This document shows, one piece after another, positions 21,583 through 31,473 of a DNA stretch of 40,154 nt. A model generated the notes under the pieces. That model ran no database searches. It was not told the DNA's origin and saw only the letters and a program-made list of their open reading frames with translations. Every line of letters starts with the position of its first letter. Within the stretch, counting starts at the first letter, position 1. The position numbers and the translations under genes were made by a program. The stretch covers positions 1-40,154 of the forward strand of contig JABWCO010000032.1 in NCBI GenBank assembly GCA_013360185.1. Direction: 5' to 3'. Source of the DNA: Bdellovibrio sp. Its GTDB lineage: Bacteria; Bdellovibrionota; Bdellovibrionia; Bdellovibrionales; Bdellovibrionaceae.

Positions 21583-21609
21583 TAAAAAGGGGGGCTGCTA
21601 GTAAGCCCC
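21583..21609 (-). terminator. Rho-independent terminator for the gene at 21598-22410
   Basis: On the minus strand GGGGCT and AGCCCC form a 6-bp stem with a 7-base loop, followed by CCTTTTT. The loop and stem contain the TAG stop codon of the gene it ends. Confidence 0.65.
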
Positions 21610-22410
21610 ACCCCATTGACCGTTATCGGGGTTCGAAATCAAATCGAACATACTGACATCAAAATACATCGTCCGCCCGTGGGCTTTATATTCAAAACAG
21701 CCGTCTTTCTGAGCGCTTAAATTAAATCCGCCACCCCACCAAAAGTATCCAGGAACCTCGCTGACAGTATTGGCTTTGCTAGCAGGATTTTGCAGCACGA
21801 TTAAGTCTGCAGTGGGTTCTATGTCACCGACAATATTGCGAGTTTTATAGCGCCATTTGATTTTTTCATCGTTCTTTACGTTGCCGTTCTCATCTAAGGT
21901 CTTAAGTTGTTCAGCCGTGTGATAAAGAACTTTGACTCTTCCGTCCGTGAACATTTCTTGAAACATTCCAGCCATATCCGCTATGGGATAACGGTCGTAC
22001 TTTTCTTTCATGATCTTTTCAGGAATTAAAAAGTGTGAATGTCCCATATCCGGAAAAAAAATGCCATCGACATAATTCAACTCCAAAGCCCGCTCGACAT
22101 GGCGAACGATACTTTGTACGAAAGTTTCAGAAATCTGAATATCACCGCCACGTTCCGCATCGTACGGCAGCTTTAAGACGCCCATATTAGCATCCCAAAA
22201 TGCCCGTCTTGGCAAACGCTTAGACGATTGATAAATTTCCGTGAATTTCAAAAGCATGCTCGGGATATCATAGTCCCACCTAAACTCACTAGAGTAAAGG
22301 GGGCTTTCTCCTGCAGACAAAGGCCCACATCGCTGCGAAATCTCCTTTAAAGAGTTCCCGGCCCACACACTTTGACTTACAAATAAAACTAAGAAAATCC
22401 ATTTGATCAT
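21598..22410 (-). CDS. Secreted protein of unknown function (270 aa)
   Basis: The signal peptide MIKWIFLVLFVSQSVWA is followed by about 250 residues. The body is rich in aromatic and charged residues, with motifs FFPDMGHSHFLIP (about 120-132) and GYFWWGGGFN (about 223-232) and a single C-terminal Cys. A His-containing MGHSHF segment and several acidic residues could bind metal, but no family is recognised. It appears monocistronic: its own terminator overlaps the stop codon, and 102 non-coding bases separate it from the next gene on the same strand. Confidence 0.78.
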   Translation of the reverse strand: MIKWIFLVLFVSQSVWAGNSLKEISQRCGPLSAGESPLYSSEFRWDYDIPSMLLKFTEIYQSSKRLPRRAFWDANMGVLKLPYDAERGGDIQISETFVQSIVRHVERALELNYVDGIFFPDMGHSHFLIPEKIMKEKYDRYPIADMAGMFQEMFTDGRVKVLYHTAEQLKTLDENGNVKNDEKIKWRYKTRNIVGDIEPTADLIVLQNPASKANTVSEVPGYFWWGGGFNLSAQKDGCFEYKAHGRTMYFDVSMFDLISNPDNGQWGGAY

Positions 22411-22512: not shown

Positions 22513-23229
22513 CTATTCTTTTAGTTCTAATGTGGATTCAGCTAGATTATTTTGCTGACGGGCTTTCACGTTACTCCAAATTTTCTGACTGGCTGGCCCC
22601 GGCAACATTCCCTCAATCTCAGCGACACTGTCTGGATATAACGAGGTAAACTGGAAAACGATTTCCGCCTTAATACCTCCCAGGGTTTCCCGGACTTCTT
22701 TTGACAGTGACGTGTCTTCCACTAAATTATCAGCAACAATATTTTTTAAAATCTCAGCCGCAATACCGGATTCAGAGCTTTGCAGAGATTCTAAGAGAAT
22801 ATCTAACGCCGCATTCTGTAACGCTTCCTGATCGCGATTCGAAGCCGGAACTTTAAGCAAGGCCTCTAACGACCTAAGGATTTCTTCATTAGCAAAAAGC
22901 TCTTGGCGAAAAATTTTATCTTCTTCCGACAAAAATACTTTGCCTTGCAAGCCGTGATACTTCTCTACGTGTTCTTTGTGAGCGAAATCTTTCCACACTT
23001 TGGCTTTAGCTTCGGGATCCGCGGCTAAAGTCATCACGGACACCTGTGTCGCTGGTTTGACCTCGTTCTGCGCTTCTACCACCGGAGCCATCAAAGGTTC
23101 TGGTGAATGCTCTGACAAACCCGACAGCGAATCTCGTTGTGGCGTTTCTGCGGCAGGGACCATCAAATAGATGATCCCTCCCAACCCTAAGGCAGCTGAT
23201 ACCAACAGAATCGTCAGGCGCTTGTTCAT
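22513..23229 (-). CDS. Membrane-anchored helical protein coupled to the Hint lipoprotein (238 aa)
   Basis: The N-terminus MNKRLTILLVSAALGLGGIIYLMV is a signal anchor or uncleaved signal peptide. A Pro/Glu-rich linker (about 28-65) and a long alpha-helical region (about 75-230) rich in Glu, Leu and Lys follow. The helical part resembles HEAT-like or coiled repeats in composition only. Its ATG lies one base after the stop of the Hint-domain lipoprotein gene, with AAGGAG nine bases upstream, so both are made from one message. The pairing suggests it assists display, processing or tethering of that lipoprotein (inference). No family is recognised. Confidence 0.78.
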   Translation of the reverse strand: MNKRLTILLVSAALGLGGIIYLMVPAAETPQRDSLSGLSEHSPEPLMAPVVEAQNEVKPATQVSVMTLAADPEAKAKVWKDFAHKEHVEKYHGLQGKVFLSEEDKIFRQELFANEEILRSLEALLKVPASNRDQEALQNAALDILLESLQSSESGIAAEILKNIVADNLVEDTSLSKEVRETLGGIKAEIVFQFTSLYPDSVAEIEGMLPGPASQKIWSNVKARQQNNLAESTLELKE

Positions 23230-23230
23230 A

Positions 23231-25957
23231 CTAGAACGCTCCTTGAGTCATCGTTTTGCGGAATAAAGATCTGTTCAACTCTTTAGCTCCATCATTTTGG
23301 AAGTAAGCTGAACCGTTCAAGTATCCATTCAGTACCAGGATATTGTGATGGATCGCTGACGATTTCACGAACACATTATAGACCTTGCCTAAGTGTTTCG
23401 CTGGAGTGATTGATACGATCGGATCCAAGACTCCACCCAACTGCACTAAGTGCTCGCCTACCTTAAAGTCCTTAGCTACTTTCATATAGCCATTGGAAGC
23501 AACCAAGGTATGGTTCGTCGTAACTTTAATTTCGCGACCTGACTTCATGCGGAAGACTAAGATGTCATGTTCTGAGTCCAACAACTCTGTCACCCACTGG
23601 TCGACTTTAGTTTTTTGCACTGCTTTACTTCCCATGGATTGTGAACTTTGCAATGAAGCTACAAAGCCATAGTTTTTAGTCAACGCCTCGATGAAAGGCA
23701 CGTACTTCATGTTTTTGCTGTTAGCTGCTTCTTCAGCCAAGATCAACTGTTCCGGCGTTGCACACGATGACACACACACTGTTGCTACGTATGCTGTTGC
23801 TGGCATTGAGCAGGCCGCTTTTTTATTTTTCGGAGCAATCCAAGCTTTCTCTGGATTTGTTGCACGGTTCATGAAGCTTGGGTACAGATGTTGACCTTTA
23901 GAGTCGATGGCATATTTACCTTTTTGCACTTCATCAAAGTTTTCTAAGAATTCTTTGACGATCGGCAACTGGTCTTTACATTTCACCATCCACTCGTAAC
24001 GACCCTGTGCTTCTGAGTTACTTAAGCTGTCATGGGAACAACGGCGCGCCACATAGTCACGGCAATATTTTTCTTCAACCCAAGGACCATTGACTACGGA
24101 TTCGCTTTCCAACTGAACCGAGTGATCGATGCAGGCATAAACTTTGGTTGTCGTTACCTCACGAGTGCTGACCACAACCCCAATTTGATTTTTAGGACAT
24201 ACTTGAGATCGGTTGCCTTCTTCTGTTGTCACGGCAGATTCAGAGCGACGAACGGCCTCTGGATTGGCATCACAAAGACGCTCCTCGACTGGAGCCACCC
24301 CTGAACAACGGTTTGAATCAACCACTTTACCTGAATCATCTTTACAGATGAAGATGCGCGACTGCTTACCACCGCAATCGGCAGAACAGGCCGTGAACTC
24401 TTCTGATGGTACATAGCTGTAAACAGGACATGCACCTGCTGTTTTAATTGAACCTTTGCGAGTATTTGAACTTACAATCTGACCATCTTTACAAAGCTGA
24501 TCTGAAACTTCGTTGAAAAGATTAAAGAAGCCTTCTTCACCGAAAGAACACTGTAGCGCTTCTTTTACTTCACCAGTAACCACGTCTGTCTTAACAGTGC
24601 CGTGAACTCCGAAATCGCCACAACCATTATTACAAATCAATTGGTTAAAGTTATCTGCTCCTGACAATACACCATTTTGACATACTCGACTCGCACTTAC
24701 CGAAGCACAGGTGCCCACTGGCAATGATGTTGAATAAAGGACTTTCGACCCACCGTCGGCAAGGACGCTGCCATCCGGAAGTTTACAAGATTGACCTTGG
24801 CAAGCACCTTCATTTGTTAATTCTTTAGTACGAGAAATCTCGACCCATTTCAAACGCTCTGCCACGACTTGGCATTGCTCTTTGATAAGGTCACGATAGG
24901 ACATTTCTTTTGAACCATTCAACCCACAAGACAACGTTTCAGAATAGAGCTCACTGTGAGACTCACGAATTTGATCGCGTGTGGAACAAGCCAGTGGTTC
25001 TGGTTGCTCTGGTTCTGGTTCTGGAACAACATCACCCTCCGTCACATTTACGGAATGCTTTAAGGTGAATAGAACTTCGTTTGAATCACCCTTATAAAGA
25101 ACCGCTGTCACTTCATAAACGCCTTTAGCCGCATAAGCATGTTGTACCGTTTGCCCAGATGCCATCGAGCTATCACCAAAGTCCCAACGAATGGCACCTA
25201 CTTGATCGGCCAAACATTGCGGCATATATAGTGATAACGTCACGGACTCAGAAACTTTTGCTTCTGCAGGACCTGAAATCGCTGCGGCGGCACTGCACAC
25301 AATATCATCAGGTTCAGTGATCGTAATCGTTTGGGTTAGCATTTTTTCACCACCAGGGTTGCCCACGGCAACGACTTTCAAGGTGTAGATACCTGGATTT
25401 TGATAGGTGTGTTGTAATGGTCCCTTATCCAGCACAGACGCGGAACCGTCCCCGAATGTCCAATAAGCTTCTAACAATGTGATATTGCTGGGTACGGCCA
25501 ATTCAACCGTAATAGGTTGACCAGCGACGCCCACTTGTGGAGCCGAGATCACGATAGAGTCTGAAGCCACCACTGTTTTATATGAAAGCTCTTGCGAGGT
25601 CGTACTTGTAGCAGAGTCTTGAACTTTTGCAGTCAACACATAGGTGCCGGCTTTCTTATATACTGACGTGACCGCAGCTCCTACTTGAGCTGCACCGCCT
25701 GGGGCTTTCCACACCACTTCTTGGGTGCTGTCACAAGCTAATTGCTCATTCAGTTTATAATTGACGGCTTGACCCGCGTTACCAACAGAAGGCCCCTCAA
25801 TTTCAAGGTCATTGGTGCTGACCTTTTGAGACCCGGGTTTACAACTCATTATTGAGTTGGAGCTTTGCAGCTCTGTCGTACTGTCCGCTTGTGGTGTTTT
25901 AGAACAACTTGCGGATAGCGCACATATTCCTAGTATTAACAAAATCCTTTTGTTCAT
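23231..25957 (-). CDS. PKD / TSP1-like lipoprotein with C-terminal Hint (hedgehog/intein) domain
   Basis: I chose the ATG at 25957 (AGGAG five bases upstream; signal peptide ending LSASC, lipid Cys18). The 908-residue protein has three PKD/Ig-like domains at about 45-305, including YWTFGDGSA and IRWDFGDSS, then an acidic Pro-rich linker. A Cys-rich region (about 325-700) includes a TSP1-like TACSADCGGKQSR. The C-terminus is a Hint domain of about 165 residues: block-A Cys at 728 or 732 (CVSSCATPEQ), block-B VTTNHTLVASNG with His816, GKVYNVFVKSS, and H-H-N at 870-872 before ILVLNG. Hint domains cleave or splice their host chain or transfer it to a nucleophile. Only about 35 residues follow the last block, so a splicing extein is short. 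It is coupled to the gene at 22513. Confidence 0.87.
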   Translation of the reverse strand: MNKRILLILGICALSASCSKTPQADSTTELQSSNSIMSCKPGSQKVSTNDLEIEGPSVGNAGQAVNYKLNEQLACDSTQEVVWKAPGGAAQVGAAVTSVYKKAGTYVLTAKVQDSATSTTSQELSYKTVVASDSIVISAPQVGVAGQPITVELAVPSNITLLEAYWTFGDGSASVLDKGPLQHTYQNPGIYTLKVVAVGNPGGEKMLTQTITITEPDDIVCSAAAAISGPAEAKVSESVTLSLYMPQCLADQVGAIRWDFGDSSMASGQTVQHAYAAKGVYEVTAVLYKGDSNEVLFTLKHSVNVTEGDVVPEPEPEQPEPLACSTRDQIRESHSELYSETLSCGLNGSKEMSYRDLIKEQCQVVAERLKWVEISRTKELTNEGACQGQSCKLPDGSVLADGGSKVLYSTSLPVGTCASVSASRVCQNGVLSGADNFNQLICNNGCGDFGVHGTVKTDVVTGEVKEALQCSFGEEGFFNLFNEVSDQLCKDGQIVSSNTRKGSIKTAGACPVYSYVPSEEFTACSADCGGKQSRIFICKDDSGKVVDSNRCSGVAPVEERLCDANPEAVRRSESAVTTEEGNRSQVCPKNQIGVVVSTREVTTTKVYACIDHSVQLESESVVNGPWVEEKYCRDYVARRCSHDSLSNSEAQGRYEWMVKCKDQLPIVKEFLENFDEVQKGKYAIDSKGQHLYPSFMNRATNPEKAWIAPKNKKAACSMPATAYVATVCVSSCATPEQLILAEEAANSKNMKYVPFIEALTKNYGFVASLQSSQSMGSKAVQKTKVDQWVTELLDSEHDILVFRMKSGREIKVTTNHTLVASNGYMKVAKDFKVGEHLVQLGGVLDPIVSITPAKHLGKVYNVFVKSSAIHHNILVLNGYLNGSAYFQNDGAKELNRSLFRKTMTQGAF

Positions 25958-26249
25958 GGCGACTCCTGCTCTTTGCATACATCAATCATTGATCCAACCA
26001 ACAAGTTCCTCAACTTTTTTAGGGACAGTGAATCATCATGAATAGGTGCTCTCACTAAAGTTTTGACGCTTTATTGAACTCTCAAAAGATGTTTATTTTT
26101 TTGTCGAAAGTTTATTCAGTTCACAGTGCAGGATTGGGACGATCCTCATAGCCTTATTAGAGCCATTTAAGGGTAAAAACACCGTCTTTGTCACAAGAAC
26201 CTCCTCCCGCTCCTAATAGATAAAAACCGAATCCAACAAAGGACCCTGC
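25958..26249. other. Divergent intergenic region
   Basis: These 292 AT-rich bases lie between the Hint lipoprotein operon (minus) and the efflux operon (plus). I see no RNA gene or ORF of merit, and no clear -35/-10 pair. The first efflux gene has AAGGA before its ATG. An imperfect palindrome (GAATCATCATGAAT) lies near 26030. Confidence 0.4.
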
Positions 26250-26669
26250 ATGAAAGTAATTATACTGATTTTAAGCGTTTGCGCGTCTTTGAATGCCCTG
26301 GCTCACGGCGAAGATCGCCTTGGACCCAATGGCGGCTATGTAAGAATGCCCGGCGCCTATCATACTGAAATTGTTTTAGACGGTAAGAATAAGCTCAAGG
26401 TCTATCTTTTAGATATTGATTGGAAGAACCCCACCACGAAAAACTCTTCCGTGGAAGCAGTTCACTTGCCGCAACAAAAAGAAGCCGTGAAGTGCCAAAT
26501 GCAAGTCACTTACTTTGAGTGCGTCTTTCCCACAGGGATAAATCTTACCAAAAAAGGTCAGATCGTTTTACGCACTCAGCGCGACGGGCAAAAAGGCAAT
26601 GAAGCCACTTATGATCTTCCCTTAAAGCTTGTTAAGTCAGATGATGGTGGGCACGGTAATCATCACTAG
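26250..26669 (+). CDS. Small His-rich periplasmic protein of the RND efflux operon
   Basis: The signal peptide (MKVIILILSVCASLNALA) precedes a mature part starting HGEDRLGPNGGYVRMPGAYH and ending GGHGNHH. His residues at both ends suggest metal binding. The core (about 35-130) has beta-strand-like phrases such as TEIVLDGKNKLKVYLLDID and two cysteines. Domains of this look occur at the N-termini of some heavy-metal efflux adaptors, so it may be a free-standing metal chaperone or adaptor part (inference). It opens the operon; the pump gene starts 35 bases downstream. Confidence 0.78.
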   Translation: MKVIILILSVCASLNALAHGEDRLGPNGGYVRMPGAYHTEIVLDGKNKLKVYLLDIDWKNPTTKNSSVEAVHLPQQKEAVKCQMQVTYFECVFPTGINLTKKGQIVLRTQRDGQKGNEATYDLPLKLVKSDDGGHGNHH

Positions 26670-26704
26670 TTTGTAAGCACGCGCGCCCCTGAAGGAGCCC
26701 ACCT

Positions 26705-29700
26705 ATGTTAGATCAAATCATTCGCTTTTCTCTAACAAACAGACTTTTCGTTCTTGCGGTGAGTGTGTTGATCACGATTTACGGACTGTTTACCGTCACG
26801 AAAATGCCGGTGGATGTTTTTCCTGATTTAAATCGTCCCACTGTGAACATTCTCACTGAAGCCACCGGCATGGCTCCGGAAGAAGTTGAAACTTTGGTGA
26901 CGCTGCCCTTAGAGACTGTTCTTAACGGTTTACCCGGAGTTGAAAGAGTGCGCTCCTCAACCGGTATTGGCTTGTCCGTCATTTATGTCGAGTTTGGCTG
27001 GGATACAGATATTTACCGCAATCGGCAGTTGGTCTCTGAAAAACTACAATTAGCAAAAGACAAACTTCCTCGGGGCGTCACTCCGGTGATGGGACCCATT
27101 TCTTCTTTAATGGGAGAAATCCAACTGGTCGGTCTTTCTGCCCCCGAAGGCAAAGTCAGTCCTTTAGAACTAAGAACCATCGCCGATTGGACGCTGCGCC
27201 CACGTCTGCTCTCAATTCCGGGAGTCGCCCAAGTCATCGCCATCGGTGGCGGAGTAAAGCAATATCAAGTTTTACTGTCAGCAGAAAAAATTCAGAAAAC
27301 ACAGTTGGCCCTAGCCGATATTGAAAGTGCCCTTTCAAAGATCAGCATGAACACCACCGGTGGATACATCGACCTTGATAAAAAAGAACTTTTAATTCGT
27401 AACATCGGCACCATCCGTTCTGAAGACGACATTCGCAACACTGTTGTAGGCATGCACCTGGGGCGCCCTGTTCTGGTCAAAGACATCGCAGAGGTTAAAA
27501 TCGGTGCTCAGATCAAGCGCGGTGACGGCAGCGTGAATGGCAAGCCCGCTGTTATTTTAAGTATCCAAAAACAGCCCGGCGCAAACACTATCGAGCTGAC
27601 TAAGAAAATCGACCTCGCCCTGCAAGATTTAGAAAAGTCCTTGCCAGAGGGTGCGATACTTTCAAAAGACTTATTTAAACAATCTAACTTTATTCAAGCT
27701 GCTACAAACAACGTCATAGAAGCCTTAAGAGACGGTACGTTTTTAGTTTTTATCATTCTGTTTTTGTTCTTAATGAACGTCCGTACGACCATCATCACCC
27801 TGACGGCCATCCCTTTGTCGTTGCTCGTAACGGCTATCGTCTTTCATTACTTTGGTCTTTCGGTCAATACAATGACCCTTGGGGGCTTAGCGGTGGCCAT
27901 TGGGGAGCTTGTCGACGATGCTATCGTTGACGTAGAAAACGTCTTCCGAAGACTTAAAGAAAATAAACTTGCGGGAAATCCATTGTCGACCTTGCAAGTC
28001 GTTTACAACGCTTCCTCTGAGGTCCGCAACTCCATCGTTTTCGCAACCATCATTGTCGTGCTCGTCTTCGTACCACTCTTTTATATGAGCGGCATCGAAG
28101 GACGCCTGTTCATCCCCATGGGTATTGCTTATATTATTTCCTTAATCGCTTCACTCATCGTTTCCTTAACCGTAACGCCAGTCCTTTGTTCTTATTTGTT
28201 AAGCAAGGACAAGTTGATTGAACACAAAGATGGCTTCTTAGTCCAAAAACTAAAACACTGGGATCGCAAGCTGTTAGTTGCCTCCCTGGAAAATCATAAA
28301 GTCGTTTTGTCTGGGGCCGCAATCTTGTTGATTGCATCCCTGTCTTTGGTGCCTTTTATGGCAAAAGACTTTCTGCCAAAATTTAACGAAGGAACTGCGA
28401 CTATCAACATTTTATCTCAGCCTGGTATTTCTTTAGAGGAATCCAATCGCATAGGTGCCGAGGCTGAAATTCTGATTCTGTCAGTACCTGAAGTGAAGTC
28501 CGTCGCCCGCCGTACGGGGCGTGCAGAACTGGATGAGCATGCTGAAGGTGTGCACTCTGCGGACGTGGACGTCGACTTTAAAGAGGGCGGGCGCGACAGA
28601 GAGCTCGTTCTGCAAGACATTCGCGAAAAGTTAAAAGCCCTGCCAGGAATTTATGTCAACATTGGTCAGCCTATTTCTCACCGCCTGGATCATTTACTTT
28701 CCGGAGTGCGAGCGCAAATAGCAATCAAAGTTTTCGGCAACGATCTCAACGTTCTGCGTGCCAAGGCTGCGGAAATTGCCAAGGCCTTAGAGGGCACTCC
28801 CGGTCTGGTGGACCTGCAGGTCGAACAACAAGTGTTGATCCCACAAATCAAAATTCAACTGCTGCGTGAAGATGCTGCAAAGTACGGTATTGTGATTGGT
28901 GAGTTGTCGGAAACCTTAGAAAAAGCTCTGAACGGAGAGGTCATCAGTCAAGTGTTGGACCAACAGCGCACCTTTAACGTGTACATGCGCTTTGATGATC
29001 AGTCCCGTGCGAATTTGGAGCTGATTCAAAAGACCACTTTAAAAACGATGCCGGATGGCACGCGTATAACTTTAGAAAAAGTGGCTGACGTGTACGAATC
29101 AAACGGGCCTAACCAAATCAGTCGCGAAAACGCGCAACGCCGGATTGTTGTGTCAGCGAACTCTCAAGGTCGCGGCATTGATAGCTTAGTGAAAGAGATG
29201 CAAAAACGCATTGAAGCCAATGTGGAATTGGCTCCGGGATATTTCGTCCAGTACGGAGGGCAATTTGAAAGCCAACAAGCTGCCAGCCGTTTGATTTTGC
29301 TCTTAGGAATCTTGTCTCTGACGGCGATCTTTATTGTTCTTTACGCGCACTTTAAATCGTCGTTTATTGCCATTCAGATTATGCTAAATATTCCCATGGC
29401 TTTGATTGGCAGCCTGGTGGCGATTTACCTTTCCAGCCGCACCTTTTCAATTGCATCGATGGTTGCCTTTGTTACGCTTTGCGGGATTTCAAGTCGTAAT
29501 GGCATTATGATGATTTCCCATTATCTGCATCTCATGAAACATGAAGGCGAAAAATTCACCAAAGAAATGGTCATTCGTGGATCCTTAGAACGCCTGGTGC
29601 CTGTCTTAATGACAGCCCTGACTGCGGTACTAGGACTTTTACCTCTAGTATTTGCAAGTGGCGCCCCGGGAAAAGAAATTCTGCATCCCGTCGCCGTCGT

Positions 29701-29836
29701 GATCGTGGGTGGCTTGATCAGCTCAACCCTGCTAGATATGTTTGTAACGCCCACTGTGTTTTATCACTTTGGTCGCAAGTCCGCAGAAAAGAACTTAACT
29801 GAAAAAGAAAATGAACTGCAACCGACACCCCATTAG
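26705..29836 (+). CDS. Heavy-metal-type RND efflux pump (CzcA/CusA-like)
   Basis: This 1043-residue protein has full RND length and starts at ATG with AAGGAG upstream. The first membrane span is at about 13-32. A porter loop, a central block of spans (about 340-490), a second loop and C-terminal spans (about 870-1020) follow in standard order. Early motifs include [17 protein letters not shown] and [13 protein letters not shown]. Span 4 reads [18 protein letters not shown], with Glu401, Asp404, Asp405, Asp409 and Glu411. Asp404 and Glu411 match the Asp and Glu of the CzcA relay, but the first CzcA Asp is Ala398 here while Glu401 and Asp409 are extra. It should export a metal ion or small compound by proton antiport. 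The substrate cannot be told from sequence alone. Confidence 0.93.
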
Positions 29837-29846
29837 GAGATCCACC

Positions 29847-30236
29847 ATGAAAAGTCTTATCCTTACTCTTTCTTTGCTGACAGCCATCCCTGCTGCGTAC
29901 GCCCATGAAGGCCATGAAATGCCTGGAGTGATTAAAGCTGCTCACGGTGGCATCGTCGTTGCGGGAAAAGAATTTAATATGGAATACATGCAGTCAGGTA
30001 CAGAGATCAAACTATATCCTCTGCCTCATCCTGGTGACACCTTTGACTTTAGCAAAGTGAAATTCACAGCCACCGCAAAAGCACCCAAAGAAAAGGAATC
30101 TGAACTGAAGCTTGAGAAAAAAGAAAACGCCTTCGTTACCACTGTCGATTTCAAAAAGGCCTATCGCCTAGAAATCATCGTAACCTCAGACAACGCTGGC
30201 AAAAAAGATAAGTTCAAGTTCCAAGTGGAAAAATAA
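29847..30236 (+). CDS. Second small periplasmic protein of the efflux operon
   Basis: I chose the ATG at 29847 (GGAG six bases upstream, signal peptide MKSLILTLSLLTAIPAAYA) over an earlier start inside the pump gene. The mature protein begins HEGHEMPGVIKAAHGG, with four His in the first 16 residues. It continues with a Lys-rich beta-type domain (about 30-129) with no cysteines. It sits between the pump and channel genes, where adaptor components are usually encoded, but at 129 residues it is far too short for a membrane fusion protein (usually 350-450). A metal-binding periplasmic accessory is likely (inference). Confidence 0.78.
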   Translation: MKSLILTLSLLTAIPAAYAHEGHEMPGVIKAAHGGIVVAGKEFNMEYMQSGTEIKLYPLPHPGDTFDFSKVKFTATAKAPKEKESELKLEKKENAFVTTVDFKKAYRLEIIVTSDNAGKKDKFKFQVEK

Positions 30237-30249
30237 TAAAGAGGCTTTT

Positions 30250-31473
30250 ATGAAAACATGTTCCTTCCTGCTCACCCTCCTTTTGGGAACTTCTGCTTAC
30301 GCATTAGAAGGTTTAAATCCTTTGGAAGCAAAGCTGAACGAAAAAAATCAAACTTTGCTTGCCCTAAAAAATGATGTCGCAGCCAAGGAACAAATTCTAA
30401 AGTCTTCTTACGCCACCTTTTACCCAACCCTCGACGCTGTCGCAGGTTGGGGGGAAGATCGTTTGGTGGATCCCGGGGATCGTCATAAAGGTTATTTTGG
30501 CTACTTAGATGGTCGCTTAAATATATTCAGAGGCTTTGGCGACAGCGCCATTTCTCGGCAAAAAGAGCTGGCTCTTGATGTTGCAAAAATAGAGCATGAA
30601 AAAAAGCAGCGTGAACTTCGCCAGCAGCTCATTGATGTCACCAGTGAAGTGATTTTTTTGCACAGACTTCAAGAAATTTTAGTCAGTGAAGCCAACGTTA
30701 CCAAAGAACATCGCAAGATGGCCGCTAAAAAAGTTTCTTCGGGGCTTACAAGTTCCGTCGACAACTTAGAATTTGATTTGCGCGAAGAAGAGCTCAGCAT
30801 CCAAAAACGCCAAATCGCCCAACTTCACGACGAAGCCCATCAGAAAATACTGCAGCTTTTTGGTGAAGATATTTCAGAAGAGATCTTAGACAGTGTTCAA
30901 TACGGAAGCTTTGCAAGTTTAAGTAGCATCCCCACATACAATCCTGAAAAAAACTTAGACTTACAAAAAGCCCAATTAAATTTGCAACTAGCAGAACAAG
31001 AGAAAAAAGAAGGGCGCGCAGGCTATCTGCCCTCTGTGGACTTCGTCTATAGCTTCGGTCGCTTAACGCCTACAGAAGAGTCCTCCATGGATTTTAACGA
31101 ATCTCGATATGCGGTTAAACTGACCATCCCCTTGTTTTCGGGATTCGATACCCGGCATAAACAACAAGCCGCAAAATCTTTTGTCCAAGCCCGTAAAGCC
31201 GAGTCGTTACAATCTTCCAATGATTCACGTAGCGCCTACAATACCCTGAGCCGCAAGATCAGCGAACTTTCAGACCTTTACAAAATTAACGAGCGCAAAC
31301 TAGAAACCTCTAAAAAATATTTTGAGATGACCGTAAACGAATACAAGCGTGGAATTAAGAACTCCCCTGACTTGGTCACCGCAACAGAGCGCTGGTTTTC
31401 TTCGCAGAAAAGAAAATACGAAATCTTAAAAGAACTTGAAATTGCGCAAATTAAGATCCAAAACTTGAATTAA
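30250..31473 (+). CDS. TolC-family outer-membrane efflux channel
   Basis: This 407-residue secreted protein (signal MKTCSFLLTLLLGTSAYA) shows the long amphipathic helices of outer-membrane efflux proteins. Features include the duplicated pattern YLPSVDFVYSFG in the second half and YPTLDAVAGWGED in the first, plus coiled-coil-rich stretches at about 100-180 and 295-400. The length is near the TolC family norm. It completes the pump and channel pair. The start is 13 bases after the preceding stop, and the stop overlaps the next start as TAATG. Confidence 0.88.
   Translation: MKTCSFLLTLLLGTSAYALEGLNPLEAKLNEKNQTLLALKNDVAAKEQILKSSYATFYPTLDAVAGWGEDRLVDPGDRHKGYFGYLDGRLNIFRGFGDSAISRQKELALDVAKIEHEKKQRELRQQLIDVTSEVIFLHRLQEILVSEANVTKEHRKMAAKKVSSGLTSSVDNLEFDLREEELSIQKRQIAQLHDEAHQKILQLFGEDISEEILDSVQYGSFASLSSIPTYNPEKNLDLQKAQLNLQLAEQEKKEGRAGYLPSVDFVYSFGRLTPTEESSMDFNESRYAVKLTIPLFSGFDTRHKQQAAKSFVQARKAESLQSSNDSRSAYNTLSRKISELSDLYKINERKLETSKKYFEMTVNEYKRGIKNSPDLVTATERWFSSQKRKYEILKELEIAQIKIQNLN

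Follow-up and report, generated by a model that had tools for sequence, protein, structure and literature searches.

A Bd2400-type BIL lipoprotein with a C-terminal Hint domain, and its linked gene DN1, in Bdellovibrio sp.

The locus and its identity with Bd2400

The window analysed here is a stretch of 40,154 nt of Bdellovibrio sp. DNA, and the gene of interest lies on its minus strand, immediately followed by a second gene that we call DN1. The features are as follows.

23231..25957, minus strand: Bd2400-type BIL lipoprotein gene; 908 aa, uninterrupted ORF with the stop codon within the coordinates
25904..25957, minus strand: signal peptide with lipobox LSAS-C18, from the sequence; the lipobox is kept in most orthologues
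25028..25810, minus strand: PKD-type beta-sandwich region, residues about 50-310, from Pfam PKD/PKD_4; limits approximate
24266..24403, minus strand: TSP1-like Cys-rich module, residues 519-564; Pfam TSP1, sub-threshold in the window protein
23765..24064, minus strand: four-Cys module abutting Hint, residues 632-731 (C640, C660, C716, C728); conserved, and standing alone in Hint-less paralogues
23291..23764, minus strand: Hint domain, residues 732-889, from the family profile and the AlphaFold2 fold
23762..23764, minus strand: Cys732, predicted N-S acyl-shift nucleophile, with predicted scissile bond Ser731-Cys732; conservation and superposition
23510..23521, minus strand: block B TTNH (Thr813, His816); conservation
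23375..23383, minus strand: block F VYN, with Asn861 at the intein Asp position; conservation and alignment to the KlbA intein
23309..23314, minus strand: block G position, with Gly882-Ser883 replacing His-Asn; structure superposition and family alignment
23234..23308, minus strand: conserved 25-aa C-terminal tail (QN..K..NR.LFR..LT.G), whose final codons contain the SD of the next gene
22513..23229, minus strand: DN1, 238 aa; predicted N-terminal TM anchor, disordered linker and all-helical domain, from AlphaFold2 and linkage

There is an SD sequence (AGGAG) 6 nt upstream of the ATG at 25957, and this start was therefore chosen in place of the longer ORF from an in-frame ATG at 25978. The N-terminal part had been put down as PKD/TSP1-like in a preliminary description of this DNA. 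Pfam PKD/PKD_4 matches three stretches of the protein (E 2e-25), which bears out the PKD assignment. The TSP1 match scores 19.1 bits in the window protein against a cut-off of 23.8 bits, and reaches 25.6 bits, which exceeds the cut-off, in a Bd2400-type orthologue (L032). A lipoprotein at the outer membrane or surface is the best explanation for the 908-aa protein. The genes upstream (26250-31473, plus strand) are divergent and include one for a 1043-aa RND-type efflux pump-like protein; within the genus they are common only to one other locus (L028 of genome G020).

The preliminary description raised the possibility of an undescribed system. This has to be given up, because published bd2400 qPCR primers (PMC11271337) fall on the coding sequence for the orthologue's nucleophile motif, and literature from 2009 covers C-type BIL. 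The forward primer encodes ATPEQQI of that motif, and in two genomes of the same genus the primers lie about 120 bp apart on the orthologue with 1+0 (G006) and 0+0 (G023) mismatches. The window protein and a bd2400-type protein (P0001) are 56% identical over 901 aligned residues. On sequence grounds, the 908-aa protein is the orthologue of Bd2400, encoded by a single-copy gene, and a C-type BIL. Bd2400 reportedly consists of a signal peptide, two PKD domains, PPS-1 and the C-type BIL, and is said to undergo N-terminal autocatalytic cleavage in vitro and stage-dependent processing. The window protein has the same order of signal peptide, PKD domains, Cys module and Hint, but the flanking genes of Bd2400-type loci differ from those found here.

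The four-Cys module at residues 632-731 is probably the published PPS-1 domain. The association of C-type BIL with PPS-1 is named in PMC9185962, and C-type BIL in B. bacteriovorus is the subject of Dori-Bachash et al. (2009; doi 10.1007/s10142-008-0106-7). Bd2400 is expressed in attack phase (PMC2797640) and bd2400 is absent from one Bdellovibrio genome (PMC5941755). In the Bd2400 and BIL literature outside the 2009 primary paper we found no mention of DN1, of the Cys parity or of the Hint-less paralogues described below. The kind of protein is thus already described (Bd2400, 2009), and what is new is the DN1 partner, the Cys pattern, the Hint-less paralogues and the relatives in Vibrio and Shewanellaceae.

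The Hint domain and its expected chemistry

When searched alone, the window protein gives sub-threshold matches to Pfam Intein_splicing (E 0.0018) and NCBIfam intein_Nterm (E 0.0088). Its relatives score up to 5e-6 against Intein_splicing, and 18 of 21 match intein_Nterm. A profile made from these 21 relatives has 15 matches in the PDB up to E 1 (best 2e-6), all of which are inteins, intein-containing chains or the BIL 2lwy. For PT-HINT (PF07591) there are weak sub-threshold profile matches among the relatives; a search of the own genome with this family gave no match, the Hint family being sub-threshold for single-sequence Pfam. An AlphaFold2 model of residues 620-908 (mean pLDDT 77; Hint mostly 70-96) has a Hint fold, which answers the structure prediction proposed at the outset for residues 720-908. 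The modelled domain superposes on inteins, BIL2, 2lwy and hedgehog with Z 16-18 and rmsd 1.7-2.4 over 133-143 residues (hedgehog, Z 16.0; Tetrahymena BIL2, 6y75, Z 16.8), and Foldseek gives a best E of 1e-9. Taken together, the relatives' profiles, the PDB matches and the fold show that the 908-aa protein truly ends in a Hint domain, beyond chance, as had been proposed from the sequence.

The motifs first picked out (Cys728, Cys732, TTNHT with His816, VYNVFV at 859-864 and HHN at 870-872) are at the positions given for them. Model residue 113 (Cys732) superposes on residue 1 (Cys1) of inteins and on hedgehog Cys258, the known catalytic Cys. HHN was taken as a Hint hallmark, but it varies within the family, and its candidacy as block G is ruled out by structure and conservation. 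The terminal Asn of inteins aligns with model residue 264, which is Ser883, and the penultimate His with Gly882; in Mtu RecA, GyrA and gp41-1 this Asn is residue 440, 198 and 125, respectively.

In an alignment of 69 distinct family members, Cys732 is present in 68/68, His816 in 69/69 and Thr813 in 67/69 (Ser in the other two). Asn861 and Gly882 are each conserved in 69/69 and Gln887 is near-invariant. Cys728, at -4 to Cys732, is kept in 67/68. The residue preceding Cys732 is Ser or Gly with a single exception (Asp), and almost every member has Ser, Thr or Asp at position 883. In one genome (L138:2414-8290) three secreted Hint genes stand one after another; they are divergent, and CxCGC-F surrounds their catalytic Cys.

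The fold, the N-terminal nucleophile and block B TxxH place the domain in the HINT superfamily, and its end sets it apart from the known classes. Splicing inteins have a C-terminal His-Asn followed by Cys, Ser or Thr and BILs of type A end in His-Asn, but Gly882-Ser883 occupies the block G position here. Hedgehog Hog shares the Hint fold, the catalytic Cys (Cys732 on Cys258) and the lack of a terminal Asn, and cleaves off an exported N-terminal part, as is predicted here. It differs in having a sterol- or adduct-recognition region after Hint, in place of which there are 19-25 residues beyond the fold, and the window protein is bacterial and its N-terminal part is already lipidated at the N-terminus. 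Tetrahymena BIL2 (6y75/6tmm) also has the common fold and is a precedent for conjugation, but it lies between ubiquitin-like domains, which the window protein does not have, and keeps the terminal Asn. Pretoxin HINT (PF07591) precedes a C-terminal toxin, whereas here the ORF stops after a 25-aa tail and is followed by DN1, in which Pfam finds no toxin homology. A subgroup of secreted bacterial Hint proteins with two conserved upstream Cys (MXAN_6253, plu1731 and others) was defined by Buerglin (2008; PMC2362128). These have signal peptides, a C-terminal Hint and two upstream Cys like the window protein, the likeness being one of description only.

Since the His-Asn of block G is replaced, neither splicing nor C-terminal Asn cyclisation is expected. 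The residues for the N-S acyl shift are fully retained, and the protein should be cut at the predicted Ser731-Cys732 bond. Hedgehog-type self-release was one of the outcomes suggested earlier; the residues for N-terminal cleavage being intact, it is likely to be the chemistry of this lipoprotein. In block F the family has Asn where inteins carry Asp, which might make the reaction slower or lead to another acceptor. A more specific outcome than hydrolysis is suggested by the conserved 25-aa tail, by the invariant Gly882 and by the near-invariant Gln887, which, like the conserved Asn861, call for an explanation.

The loss of block G and the change of Asp to Asn in block F would also fit a relict domain, in which the Hint fold serves structure or binding and cleavage is lost. 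However, the catalytic Cys, Thr and His are essentially invariant across the phylum and into Vibrio, far beyond structural need, and we regard this explanation as extremely improbable. Autocatalytic N-terminal cleavage, as reportedly seen for Bd2400 in 2009, also counts against it.

Cysteine parity and the Hint-less paralogues

The family has a short and a long type. Short-type members (about 290 aa) consist of a signal peptide, the four-Cys module and Hint, and have exactly five mature Cys (four in the module and the catalytic one), or seven in a divergent subgroup. Among long-type members with a placeable lipobox, several others being uncountable, the number of Cys after the lipobox is 25, 27, 29 or another odd number; the window protein has 29, counted from C18. 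L123 is an even-Cys exception. In 32/32 long-type proteins there is no Cys beyond the catalytic one. Because nearly all countable members are odd in mature Cys, Cys728 probably sits in a disulphide, with Cys732 left free. The simplest reading is that two disulphides would form inside the module, leaving Cys732 as the sole free thiol.

Five proteins with the four-Cys module but no Hint are encoded beside or near Hint genes:

L060:1843-2190, plus strand: Hint-less module protein
L122:4379-4951, minus strand: Hint-less module protein
L061:5483-5842, minus strand: Hint-less module protein
L061:5896-6537, minus strand: Hint-less module protein
L067:4080-4643, minus strand: Hint-less module protein

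Those of L060, L122 and L061 have four Cys per module and end 2-9 residues past the equivalent of Cys728, and one Hint-less protein carries the module twice. These paralogues stop where cleavage by Hint would fall and look like natural versions of the predicted processed product.

Cys728 and Cys732 had both been named as hallmarks of the domain. Cys732 occupies the catalytic position; for Cys728 a second catalytic role is unlikely, as the Cys parity of the family indicates a structural disulphide. The Hint-less paralogues likewise speak against its acting as another nucleophile. The near-invariance of Cys728 at -4 (67/68) could alternatively reflect a redox switch, in which a Cys728-Cys732 (C-x-x-x-C) disulphide would keep the nucleophile inactive until its reduction, for instance upon entry into the prey periplasm. 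There is a precedent among the structural matches (3nzm), a DnaE intein in which the N-extein takes part in a disulphide redox trap. However, with the four module Cys and Cys732 the total is odd in almost every case, and the Hint-less paralogues retain the Cys728 equivalent without Cys732. Both observations argue for a different bonding partner of Cys728, and a redox switch of this kind is very doubtful.

DN1, distribution and proposed mechanism

DN1 begins 1 nt after the stop of the Hint gene, and its SD (AAGGAG) is embedded in the final Hint-gene codons. Part of the reason why the tail ends in a conserved G-[AV]-F may lie in this overlap. A DN1 homologue lies directly downstream of 33/33 long-type genes examined. 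For the short type, an iterated profile (E < 1e-3) finds DN1 within 4.5 kb downstream in 23/36, and several of the genes without a match sit near contig ends. With profile A3, DN1 is found in 49/369 phylum genomes and all 49 are among the 80 that are Hint-positive; the probability of this co-occurrence in a random draw is about 4e-40, a figure that is inflated by shared ancestry. In the own genus DN1 is present in 14/14 Hint-positive and 0/10 Hint-negative genomes.

The AlphaFold2 model of DN1 has a pLDDT of 84, with the helical domain mostly above 90. Structural searches gave nothing informative (E 0.1 at best in Foldseek; in VIA, HEAT/TOG-like helical repeats with Z no higher than 8.3), Pfam searches of DN1 homologues gave no family common to more than one member, and we found no text on DN1 in the literature. 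Gene order and layout are like those of a lipase-foldase-like steric chaperone, but there is no foldase among the structural matches and this candidate is not favoured. DN1 is predicted to be anchored in the inner membrane and to face the periplasm. Judging from this architecture, it would be the dedicated partner of the Hint protein, most likely acting as holder, chaperone or gatekeeper of the precursor. Downstream of DN1 there is a gene for a predicted secreted 270-aa protein (21598-22410, minus strand), which has no Pfam match and is not conserved beside the pair elsewhere.

Relatives of the Hint protein are present in 80 of the 369 sampled genomes of the phylum, and the gene is absent from 10 of 24 genomes of the same genus (the own genome being among the 24). 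Outside Bdellovibrionota there are relatives in Vibrio sagamiensis (L061, L062) and in a Shewanellaceae MAG, UBA2521 (L067); in the order of V. sagamiensis 6/295 genomes match, mostly weakly. Because of these relatives, neither the module nor Hint is predator-specific, and the restriction of the 'predator-specific' upstream domain to predators probably does not hold. The wider neighbourhood of the pair varies, and within the genus it takes at least seven different forms. One plasmid carries relatives: pBdHAGR2 of Bdellovibrio sp. HAGR004 (L155, AP029178.1), on which the Hint lipoprotein and DN1 are adjacent and both annotated as 'hypothetical proteins'. None of the 29 candidates on viral contigs is a relative.

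Many distant relatives have a short-type operon in which Hint is followed by a lipoprotein with a subtilase domain (about 650 aa; Pfam S8 up to 3e-18) and then by DN1; an LRR/Kelch protein of about 950 aa often completes it:

L042:7396-13829; L043:622-7030; L104:5165-12280; L114:666-6873; L119:5803-12115: examples of the four-gene operon

Other short-type loci carry Hint and DN1 alone, so these two form the core pair. The subtilase lipoprotein was considered as a split-off PKD/Cys-rich N-terminus and no similarity was found. The Kelch/LRR protein was considered as part of the window system and set aside, as it is not adjacent here and its matches in the genus are weak.

The observed sequence, fold, conservation, linkage and co-occurrence are the basis of the mechanism that we propose. 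The protein would first be exported, after which the four module Cys would form two disulphides and Cys732 would stay free. Thr813 and His816 would activate the 731-732 peptide bond, and Cys732 would accept the acyl group (N-S shift) to give a thioester. A nucleophile, most simply water, would then resolve the thioester and separate the lipid-anchored N-terminal part from Hint and its tail. Neither splicing nor C-terminal cleavage would follow, as the His-Asn of block G is missing. The co-translated DN1 would probably hold or license the precursor. We consider it highly probable that this is a Bd2400-type lipoprotein with N-terminal self-cleavage driven by Cys732 in this species and with DN1 as its partner.

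The thioester at Ser731 could instead be passed to an acceptor group (an amine, a hydroxyl or a lipid) of the predator envelope, of DN1 or of prey, so that the N-terminal lipoprotein or the short PPS-1 module would be covalently attached, as with hedgehog and cholesterol or BIL2 and lysine. The retention of all N-S shift residues after loss of those for splicing, the small -1 residue (Gly or Ser) as in hedgehog, the conserved tail and the dedicated partner gene are consistent with such surface conjugation. Additionally, Tetrahymena BIL2, one of the structural matches (6y75), forms isopeptide bonds (PMC8616854). However, nothing found favours attachment to prey or host over hydrolysis and there is no candidate acceptor, the sterol-recognition region of hedgehog is much longer than the 25-aa tail, and the existence of Hint-less paralogues shows a use for the module that needs no thioester chemistry. 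We therefore think conjugation unlikely, and self-cleavage resolved most simply by water is preferred.

Bacterial Hint domains that act outside the cell have been little studied. The partner gene, the single, presumably free, catalytic Cys and the Hint-less mimics of the product make the function of this one testable. In its most far-reaching form, which we hold to be quite improbable, the Hint lipoprotein and DN1 would be a mobile two-gene cassette that builds an extracytoplasmic thioester on a disulphide-rich adhesive module and conjugates it, under the control of DN1, to a specific acceptor on the predator envelope or prey. If this were true, the cassette would be an ATP-free bacterial counterpart of hedgehog ligation.
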